Shown here: positions 37,296 to 47,939 of the stretch, piece by piece
How the letters are laid out: each line of letters starts with the position of its first letter
Numbering within the stretch: the first letter of the stretch is position 1
Translations under genes and position numbers: made by a program
Notes under the pieces: model-generated
Databases searched by the model: none
What the model saw: only the letters and a program-made list of their open reading frames with translations
Told to the model about the DNA's origin: nothing
DNA from: Candidatus Omnitrophota bacterium
GTDB lineage: Bacteria > Hinthialibacterota > Hinthialibacteria > Hinthialibacterales > JAKPRU01
NCBI GenBank assembly: GCA_029570205.1
Contig: JAKQSI010000013.1
Location: forward strand, 1 to 54,644
Reading direction: 5' to 3'
Length of the DNA: 54,644 bases

Positions 37296-37315
37296 ATTCC
37301 GGCTTTCGCCGGAAT
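37296..37315. repeat. ATTCCGGC hairpin, inverted
   Basis: ATTCCGGC-TTTC-GCCGGAAT: the minus-strand form of the dispersed GAAA-loop hairpin, lying in the leuS-mutS gap. Confidence 0.85.
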
Positions 37316-37337
37316 GACGGGGACCATCATGGGGTCC

Positions 37338-37381
37338 TGTAACGTGTAGGGGCGACGCATGCGTCGCCCCTACACGTTACA
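37338..37381. terminator. Perfect 44-bp palindrome between convergent genes
   Basis: The left half TGTAACGTGTAGGGGCGACG plus CA is exactly complementary to the right half, 22 bp with no loop. It lies 79 bases after leuS and 88 bases after the mutS stop on the other strand, suited to stopping both transcripts. Its centre GGGGCGACGCATGCGTCGCC recurs at 45812 inside a gene, so it also belongs to a dispersed family. Confidence 0.6.
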
Positions 37382-37468
37382 AGTCACCGGCGCAGCCCCC
37401 CTCTCCCTCCGGAAGAGGGAATGTACAGACAGCCACCGGTATTTTCCACGCGAGCAATTCACGCACCC

Positions 37469-45222: not shown

Positions 45223-46971
45223 ATGTATTTCTGTCGGAAAATATCTGCCTGGAAGGGCTGCCGGAATCCGCTTCTGATTCTATCGGCAGCGTCGATCGTC
45301 ATTGTTGCCTCTTTCCCCATCGGCGCACATCTCGGATTCGGACTGGTAGATGATGCTTACATCAGTATGCGGTATGCCCGAAACTGGGCGGAGGGTATCG
45401 GGCCGTTTTTCAATTCGGGCGAGCGGGTTGAGGGATACACCAATTTTCTCTGGACAGTCTTTCTGTTCGCAGGGGCACAACAGGGAATCGAACCACCGCA
45501 AATGGCGGAGCAGATGGGACGGGTGTGCCTGGGGCTTGTCATCCCCGTGGCGTTCTCCCTGGCGTTTTGTATCACAAGATCGTGGGCTGTCGCGCTTTTT
45601 GCGGTGGCGCTTGTGCTGAGCGATCCGGGAGTATGGGCCTGGTCCTTATCCGGTTTGGAGACTCCACTGCTGACACTGTTGTTCACGACAGTGTTCACAA
45701 TTTGGATGCGCAAGGGCGGGGGAATACGGAGAGAACTCTGCCTGGCCTTGCTGGTTTCAGCCGCGGCATTGACACGACCGGAGGGAGCAGCCATGTTCGT
45801 GTATATATTAGCCCGTAGGGGCGACGCATGCGTCGCCCCTGCGGGCATGGATGGCCACCGGCAAGATGCCGGCGCCACCCTCACATTTTCTCACCCCGAC
45901 CCTCTCCTGAAGGCAAAGGCGGAAAACATCCCGTCATTCCGCCGAAAGCCGGAAATCAATGGACACGGCCCAGGCGCTGGGGACGACACATGCGTCGCCT
46001 CTGCGATCGTTTTTGTCGGCATATTCATCGCGGTTTTCGGCTCCTGCTTATTATGGCGGCGATGGACGTATGGCTTGTGGCTTCCGAATTCGTTTTATGC
46101 GAAGCATGGATTCGCTGGGCCGGCGCTTTGGTGGCGGGGGGGGCGGTATGTTCTGGATGGTTGTGTGGCGCACCCGTTCTGGTTGTTGATTCCGCTGGGG
46201 TGTTTCCTCGGGGCATGGCGGGATCGGGCATTTATCAGACTGCTTGGTTTCTCGCTGTTCTACCTGATAATTGTAGCTCTTTCGGGCGGCGATCATTACA
46301 CTCTGGGCCGGTTCTGTGTGCCGGTGGTTCCGATCCTTTCGATTCTGGCTGCGATGGGTCTTCAAAACGCTTGCAAGCAGGTATCCCTCGTGCAGAAAGT
46401 CGTCGCGCAACCGGTTTGGAAAGGTCTTCCTGCAACCGTGTCGGTTGTATTCGCCGCGCTGTGTGGAGTATTGAACGCAGGCTGGGGATTCGAGTACCAG
46501 GATGGAGGATATTTCCATCGTTCCCAGATCGGTTGGGCAGAGGGCTGGGGGCGGATCGGAGAGATTTGGCGGGAGGAAGTCGAGCCGGACACAGTGATTG
46601 CGGTGGTCACCGCCGGGGCGCTCCCATACATCTCATCGCTCCCGACCATTGACATCCTGGGTATCAATGACCACCATATTTCTCAGAGAGATGTGCCGAT
46701 CGGGGGCGGAGTCGCCGGGCATGAGAAGGGCGACGCGGATTATGTGCTGCGGCGGAGACCGCAACGAATCCAAATCGCGCCCATGTTGCTTTTCCAACGG
46801 ATCCGAACGCGGTACACGGAGGTTCCGCTCGAGGATGTTCTGACCTATCCGGCCCAGATGGAGTTGGCAAATCATCCGGTTTTTCAGAAATCGTACTCAT
46901 TCGTCACCGAAAAAACCCGTTTCGGCTATCTGTCTTATCACCGATATTCCAACGAAGGAATGAAAAACTGA
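45223..46971 (+). CDS. GT-C-type membrane glycosyltransferase-like protein with in-frame repeat insert
   Basis: 582-residue polytopic membrane protein resembling GT-C glycosyltransferases such as the arabinofuranosyl and mannosyl transferase groups. Signatures: DDAYISMRYARN and EGYTNFLW in the first extracytoplasmic loop, ALTRPEGA in a mid helix, LPNSFYAKHG later, and a soluble C-terminal domain. Residues of about 197-262 (RRGDACVAPAG to DDTCVAS) are encoded by a mosaic of dispersed repeats, which swell a loop between two helices without shifting the frame. Stop overlaps the next ATG (TGATG). It probably adds a sugar to a cell-surface glycan. Confidence 0.8.
   Translation: MYFCRKISAWKGCRNPLLILSAASIVIVASFPIGAHLGFGLVDDAYISMRYARNWAEGIGPFFNSGERVEGYTNFLWTVFLFAGAQQGIEPPQMAEQMGRVCLGLVIPVAFSLAFCITRSWAVALFAVALVLSDPGVWAWSLSGLETPLLTLLFTTVFTIWMRKGGGIRRELCLALLVSAAALTRPEGAAMFVYILARRGDACVAPAGMDGHRQDAGATLTFSHPDPLLKAKAENIPSFRRKPEINGHGPGAGDDTCVASAIVFVGIFIAVFGSCLLWRRWTYGLWLPNSFYAKHGFAGPALWWRGGRYVLDGCVAHPFWLLIPLGCFLGAWRDRAFIRLLGFSLFYLIIVALSGGDHYTLGRFCVPVVPILSILAAMGLQNACKQVSLVQKVVAQPVWKGLPATVSVVFAALCGVLNAGWGFEYQDGGYFHRSQIGWAEGWGRIGEIWREEVEPDTVIAVVTAGALPYISSLPTIDILGINDHHISQRDVPIGGGVAGHEKGDADYVLRRRPQRIQIAPMLLFQRIRTRYTEVPLEDVLTYPAQMELANHPVFQKSYSFVTEKTRFGYLSYHRYSNEGMKN
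45812..46008. repeat. Repeat mosaic inside the GT-C gene
   Basis: In order: a 34-bp palindrome centred on GCATGC (45812-45845) from the leuS-mutS family; CACCGGCA-AGA-TGCCGGCG (45856-45874); CTCACCCCGACCCTCTCC (45891 on); a degenerate ATTCCGCC-GAAA-GCCGGAAAT (45936 on); and a GACACATGCGTCGCC remnant near 45986. Reading frame stays open through all of it. Confidence 0.8.
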
Positions 46972-47939
46972 TGCACAAGCGATACCGGACGTTCGGCGAT
47001 TGGATTCGGGAACGATACGGTTGCCGTGTGCATAAAGTTTGTGTGGATGCCGGATTTACCTGTCCGAATCGCGATGGAACCAGGGCCGTGGGCGGCTGTA
47101 CCTTCTGCAATAACGAGGGATTCAGTTACAACACGCGACGCGGCGCGCGAAGCGTGCGGGAGCAGATACAGGAGGGCATGGAGTTTATACGCAATCGCTA
47201 CAAGGCACAACGCTTTATCGCCTATTTTCAACCCTATTCCAATACCTACGCGCCCATCGAGGTACTTCGGAGCCGCTATGATGAGGCGTTGTCGTTCCCG
47301 GAAGTGGTCGCGCTCTCGGTCGGAACACGCCCGGACTGTGTGTCTCCGGCCGTGTTGGACCTGTTGGAGGGATATGCGCAACAATGGGATGTCTGGATCG
47401 AATACGGGCTTCAGACCGTACACAACCGAACCCTGGTGCGTGTGAATCGTTGCGATACTTATGAGAACTTCGTGCAGATTATCGAGCAAACCGTTCCGCG
47501 CCCGATCCTCATCTGCATTCATGTCATTCTGGGACTGCCGGGGGAATCACGGGCGGATATGATCGAGACAGCCCAGCGGATCGCAAAGTTTCCCTATCAA
47601 AGCCTGAAGATCCATCTGATGCACGTGATGAGAGATACGGCGCTGGCAGATCAGTACCGGCGCGGTGAGGTCTCTGTACTCACCCGTGAAGAATATGCGG
47701 AGCGGGTGGCCGATTTTCTGGAGTATGTTCCGGCGGACGTGGCTCTGCAACGTCTTTCCGCGGATGCGCCCAGAGAGGTCCTGATTGCCCCGGAATGGTG
47801 CCTGAATCGAACCGAGACAGTCAGGGCGATTGAGAACACCCTGGAGCAAAGAAACACGTGGCAAGGAAAGAAACTCGGATTCCCGCCACCCTGGGAATCC
47901 GCTCCCGGTCGTCTGGAATTATCCGGTAGCGTTCGATGA
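46971..47939 (+). CDS. Radical SAM protein, YhcC family
   Basis: 322 residues of the TIGR01212/YhcC group. Cluster cysteines C31, C43 and C46 (CPNRDGTRAVGGCTFC), followed by FQPYSNTYAP and GLQTVHNRTL, both typical. Exact reaction not established for the family. It overlaps the next gene by four bases. Confidence 0.92.
   Translation: MHKRYRTFGDWIRERYGCRVHKVCVDAGFTCPNRDGTRAVGGCTFCNNEGFSYNTRRGARSVREQIQEGMEFIRNRYKAQRFIAYFQPYSNTYAPIEVLRSRYDEALSFPEVVALSVGTRPDCVSPAVLDLLEGYAQQWDVWIEYGLQTVHNRTLVRVNRCDTYENFVQIIEQTVPRPILICIHVILGLPGESRADMIETAQRIAKFPYQSLKIHLMHVMRDTALADQYRRGEVSVLTREEYAERVADFLEYVPADVALQRLSADAPREVLIAPEWCLNRTETVRAIENTLEQRNTWQGKKLGFPPPWESAPGRLELSGSVR

Follow-up and report, generated by a model that had tools for sequence, protein, structure and literature searches.

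The locus and its mosaic loop

The window, that is, the whole 54,644-nucleotide stretch analysed here, belongs to a 4.39 Mb Omnitrophota MAG of 131 contigs (G000). It carries a putative membrane glycosyltransferase gene, enlarged in one loop by short palindromic elements of four families (F1 to F4), and a downstream radical SAM gene. The features are as follows.

45223..46971, + strand: ORF of 582 aa for a predicted GT-C fold membrane glycosyltransferase, host of the insert (translation, profile, structure)
about 45811..46008, + strand: translated mosaic insert of 65 residues, predicted disordered loop (sequence, alignment, model)
45815-45842 (45811..45846 with inverted flanks GCCC/GGGC), no strand assigned: F1 palindrome GTAGGGGCGACGCATGCGTCGCCCCTGC, reads ARRGDACVAPAG (arms of 18, 94% complementary)
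45853..45879, - strand: F2 palindrome GGCCACCGGCAAGATGCCGGCGCCACC, reads GHRQDAGAT (family pattern search)
45890..45908, + strand: F3, degenerate, half of the CCCTCACCCCRACCCTCTCCC hairpin, reads SHPDPL (family pattern search)
45932..45954, + strand: F4, CGTC-1 type REP CGTCATTCCGCCGAAAGCCGGAA, reads PSFRRKPE (family pattern search, REP criteria)
45977..46004, no strand assigned: second F1 copy, decayed, closer to consensus in the congener G002, reads GDDTCVAS (pattern and G002 comparison)
46971..47939, + strand: MnmL/YtqA radical SAM gene, its ATG overlapping the GT-C stop (TGATG)

On the level of predicted structure and sequence, the host ORF is a probable GT-C glycosyltransferase of the AftB/ArnT/OST fold. 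The AlphaFold2 model (mean pLDDT 75, pTM 0.79) matches AftB, ArnT, OST and ALG12 with Z of 18-24, and the GT-C assignment made by the initial annotation is therefore right. Besides the GT-C membrane fold, the protein has acidic residues conserved in its first loop: D43 and D44 are invariant across nine homologues, and the DD, PN and GGD residues are invariant in the homologue alignment. In addition, N-terminal residues 22-88 match the NCBIfam model beta_arabfuran_tase (beta-arabinofuranosyltransferase) with an E value of 2e-8, far below the cut-off of that model. The MnmL/YtqA gene may be translationally coupled to the GT-C gene because its start codon overlaps the GT-C stop.

The insert separates predicted membrane helices 187-204 and 253-283, and loop residues 205-252 are disordered in the model (pLDDT about 41-44). 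Its DNA is built from five palindromic units, which belong to four dispersed families (F1, F2, F3, F4 and a decayed F1), and the frame of the ORF stays open across 45812-46008; the predicted peptide GDACVAPAGMDGHR is an example of one crossing an insert junction. The initial description of at least four hairpin families translated in frame within a GT-C gene, with neither stop nor frame shift, is thus borne out, as the ORF is open throughout and F1 to F4 are all present and recur elsewhere in the window, where shuffled sequence gives no matches. A BLAST search of the tract against its own genome returned 51 matches, itself included, and the tract RNA folds better than all of 200 shuffles (z -4.2). 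The two F1 copies bound the whole mosaic (45811-46008) in the manner of a composite unit and are paired in the predicted RNA fold, and G002 shows the right one only.

Comparison covered three congeneric species, namely G000, G001 and G002 (Omnitrophota MAG JPNA_maxbin.304_sub), together with order-level relatives. Counted from the alignment, the loop spans 65 residues in G000, 35 in G001 and about 14 in the order-level relatives, where it is rich in basic residues; the short basic linker anticipated for normal relatives is present, and its basic residues suggest that the insert loop lies on the cytoplasmic side. The anticipated enlargement by about 65 residues is correct as the length of the tract and too large as a gain, since the loop lengths of the relatives leave a net increase of about 51 residues over the order-level proteins and 30 over G001. 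The G001 ORF (567 aa) holds a different in-frame mosaic at the same site, F3 followed by F2 (VVEMYPSPQPSPGGRGGIMNGHRQDAGATPSGSRI). In G002 the gene is split over two contigs, the left one ending just before the insert, so that the left units fall outside the comparison; the right one starts inside the mosaic and continues with the F3-F4-F1 series in the frame of G000, without indels and with about 89% nucleotide identity over the right 38 codons. The initial annotation had staked its reading against close relatives carrying the same loop with unrelated DNA, and this is half the case: the loop of G001 is enlarged as well, and the DNA that enlarges it forms another mosaic, an observation in favour of repeated insertion at a permissive loop. 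A near-identical strain with an exact empty site in its GT-C gene was not found.

Element families across genome and genus

The elements, 23-33 bp as single units, comprise F1 (GTAGGGGCGACGCATGCGTCGCCCCTAC), F2 (GGTGGCACCGGCATCTTGCCGGTGGCC), F3 (CCCTCACCCCRACCCTCTCCC with its complement) and F4 (CGTCATTCCGGCGAAAGCCGGAATCCAG). Genome-wide counts in G000, covering F1, F2 and F4 at up to two mismatches, yielded 12, 36 and 97 copies, respectively, and none for reversed control patterns. In a search of twelve genomes, F1 and F2 proved restricted to the three of the genus, and F4 occurs in these three and in two of the same class. A literature search on the element core and its encoded peptides found nothing relevant.

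F4 fits the CGTC-1 REPs in every published feature that was tested: a CGTC tag left unpaired at one end (flank consensus ..CCGT ahead of CATTCC), an 8-bp stem starting with AT around a 4-base loop (ATTCCGGC-GAAA-GCCGGAAT, seen in the flank consensus and in the 26 exact copies listed for G000), and a short unpaired CCA tail (3' flank consensus CCAGG, 45 copies). F1 ends in GTAG but differs from the GTAG REP families, in which the tag is unpaired, as its GTAG pairs with CTAC within a perfect palindrome. A dedicated transposase is absent for CGTC-1 REPs (PMC3733652). G000 encodes three Y1 tyrosine transposases (Y1_Tnp), none of them bracketed by F1-F4, and the neighbouring inverted repeats (exact arms of at least 9, within about 1.5 kb) are other hairpins; mobilisation of these elements as REPs by a RAYT was therefore set aside, Y1 genes being present but without flanking F1-F4. 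Near a Y1 transposase gene, six tandem 48-bp units each carry the hairpin AAGGCGGGAGCTGACGCTCCCGCCTT (L041:1939-2204, G000 contig 48, near 81.9 kb).

Inverted flanks of 6-10 bp extend beyond the element in 6 of 32 F1 copies, versus 0.29 expected (5000 shuffles, maximum 4), and in none of F2 or F4. The F1 copies centred in longer, copy-specific palindromes lie at window position 37349 and at L042:2352, L048:2535, L233:2054, L234:2068 and L235:483. Such flanks could reflect arm extension by template switching, a process described for quasipalindromes in PMC3820800, or insertion at the tips of hairpins. Two of these loci were compared in the congeners and gave no clean empty site, nor is a target duplication readable there because the surrounding DNA is rearranged in the congeners; window positions 37297-37419 likewise gave no empty site.

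Elements within genes and constraint on the host

A second intragenic case is found in a Wzy_C/TPR O-antigen ligase (L043:1109-3868, G000 contig 9), which carries F1 and F3 in frame, encoding RGDACVAPTCVMSTARSPLPPGEGRGEG. The G002 orthologue (96% aa identity) is empty at this place, and that of G001 has other in-frame sequence there, containing a CTCCCCCAAGATTGGGGGAG palindrome and a piece resembling half of F1. The ligase thus supplies the presence/absence polymorphism that is missing from the GT-C gene. In both genes an in-frame element, its translation predicted, sits in a gene conserved without it, as judged from the open frame and the relatives. An element may also overlap the end of a third gene: F4 lies in frame in the C-terminal tail (RHSGESRNP) of a membrane glycosyltransferase-like ORF (L084:2373-3857, G000 contig 31). 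Most other long ORFs over elements were discarded as 5' extensions of genes or as lacking a Pfam family match on both sides, and G001 L231, intragenic by hexamer scores, was left out of the count as a likely shadow frame.

Element contexts comprised 53 stretches and the window, and coding was called by hexamer scores, codon log-odds being too weak. These 54 stretches of G000 contain 83 element clusters, of which only 2 are intragenic, versus about 45 by random placement (binomial p about 1e-25); in a comparable test on the same DNA, 55% of 5482 systematically spaced sites were flanked on either side by coding sequence in a single open frame. This estimate holds for element-bearing neighbourhoods, since the stretches were chosen around elements, and purging is the simplest reading of the under-representation. 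The four consensus sequences have 20 of 24 frames open, compared with 20.06 expected from shuffling. A special open-frame property of the elements was therefore rejected: base composition alone explains their read-through, and no special coding property is needed for it. Together with the depletion (2/83), this result leaves unsupported the earlier suggestion that these elements possess lengths and frames that coding genes can absorb.

The selection tests that follow were picked post hoc, their p values are uncorrected for multiple testing, and branch changes were polarised with G001 as outgroup. Over 38 codons of the insert, the G000-G002 comparison gives 11N:2S, a ratio that fits neutral drift (binomial p 0.53) and departs from that of the flanks (Fisher p 0.03). 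Between species the GT-C gene is conserved (dN/dS 0.19-0.23, G000-G001); the part downstream of the insert has a dN/dS of 0.29 in the G000-G002 comparison and of 0.19 in G000-G001. On the G000 branch, however, the GT-C gene shows a near-neutral 21N:12S (p 0.23), compared with 22N:50S for four of its neighbours (p 0.0025 for the difference); on the G002 branch the counts are 9N:15S for the gene and 15N:48S for the neighbours (p 0.28). The excess is concentrated behind the insert: window positions 46009-46968 have 14N:6S on the G000 branch versus 3N:12S in G002, with 11N:2S directly after the insert, although three T>G changes (46141, 46142, 46160) fall within G-rich stretches, where they may represent sequencing errors. 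The GT-C gene therefore appears to be under relaxed constraint in the lineage of the window only, most strongly after the insert, a reason for caution in crediting the enlarged protein with normal function; given the contrast with its neighbours, this protein may be losing function.

The initial proposal that palindromes are tolerated in this loop is upheld, because relatives have only a short basic linker there, the loop is disordered in the model and the insert drifts neutrally. Its alternative, that selection retained the insert, is not favoured by the neutral N:S within the insert or by the relaxed constraint on the gene in G000.

Origin of the mosaic and its significance

We consider it very probable that palindromic elements entered a permissive loop of the GT-C gene and that those arriving in frame and open survived as a neutrally drifting, disordered loop. 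Under this model, unrelated non-coding palindromes dispersed in the genus (a CGTC-1 REP, a GTAG-ended palindrome and two more hairpin families) would have inserted between two membrane helices of the enzyme, successively or as a cluster; frame-breaking insertions would have been lost, and those with a length divisible by three and an open frame would have persisted as the disordered loop that now appears to drift neutrally. We infer both the order of the insertions and their nature as transposition-like copying events, and the enlarged protein is presumably made and active.

The most serious competitor, although an unlikely one, is decay of the GT-C gene in G000, where the growing insert would have compromised the enzyme, leaving its open frame as a transient remnant. 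The near-neutral pattern of the gene, unlike that of its neighbours, and the excess of N changes directly after the insert, where G002 remains constrained downstream, speak for this account; yet the ORF is intact, the motif residues are kept, the changes are mostly conservative (I/V), the three T>G changes may be sequencing errors, and the overlapping MnmL gene may need translation through the GT-C gene. Recruitment of the insert for a selected role of the loop or of mRNA hairpins, e.g., in ribosome pausing between helices or operon regulation, is very unlikely: the tract outfolds its shuffles and palindromes occupy the same loop in more than one species, but palindromes fold well by construction, the residues drift neutrally, the mosaics differ between species and the stems decay, as in the second F1 copy. 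Least probable of all is that misassembly placed intergenic repeats into the gene. Such repeats do confuse assemblers and the G002 contigs end in or beside the tract; nevertheless, two other assemblies have in-frame palindromes at the same place, the frame is intact and the unit order in G002 identical wherever readable, and pure misassembly is improbable because the 38 right-hand codons recur, in frame and free of indels, in the independently assembled G002.

Within the preferred explanation of repeated entry into a permissive loop, a variant in which F2 was seeded once in the ancestor of G000 and G001, with the rest added later on each side, is quite plausible, if somewhat short of probable. 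In both genomes F2 lies in the same frame and is preceded by CATGRATGG; however, each copy has the F2 diagnostic base of its own genome (GGCGCC in G000, GGTGCC in G001), and the shared flank is no proof of a single seeding because CATGGA stands at the same offset before other F2 copies too. A broader and rather doubtful extension is that a few protein loops in this genus act as landing and accretion sites where unrelated palindromes repeatedly enter and replace one another, invariably in frame, parasitic DNA thereby building new disordered loops in membrane enzymes of envelope-sugar metabolism, with growth fed by template switching, as the copy-specific inverted flanks of F1 would suggest.

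In-frame insertion of palindromes is already known in a few other bacteria, the closest precedents being in-frame REPs and the RPEs of Rickettsia. REPs lie inside ORFs of several species, grouped inserts encode 43-82 aa, different REPs occur near the same recB site in two Xanthomonas species, and many host genes are DNA-repair genes (Di Nocera, De Gregorio and Rocco, 2013; PMC3733652). The present system resembles these GTAG/CGTC REPs in its in-frame intragenic palindromes, its grouped inserts, the presence of different elements at one site and the CGTC-1 architecture of F4. It differs in uniting four families in one loop, in that F2 and F3 are neither GTAG nor CGTC, in its phylum, Omnitrophota, which PMC3733652 does not name, and in its host gene, a predicted membrane glycosyltransferase. 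RPEs (Ogata 2000, 2002), as described in PMC10969869 and PMC3733652, are in-frame palindromes in unrelated genes whose extra residues are compatible with the host protein. They share this mode of insertion with the elements described here but reportedly measure about 150 bp, versus units of 23-33 bp, and have nearly half of their copies intragenic, versus 2 of 83 clusters. Coding palindromes of Nematomorpha mitochondria also place inverted repeats in coding sequence; in contrast to F1-F4, those reported in PMC6649704 are mitochondrial, long and perfect, and form no dispersed families.

What is new here is the occurrence of four families in one loop, the new phylum, and the measurement of both neutrality of the insert and depletion from genes. 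Moreover, three congeneric species supply a comparative series, comprising an empty site in the Wzy ligase, two mosaics in the GT-C gene and measured neutral drift, which makes it testable how proteins absorb selfish DNA. The results suggest that such cases are rare because of purging, and that their existence requires no special coding property.
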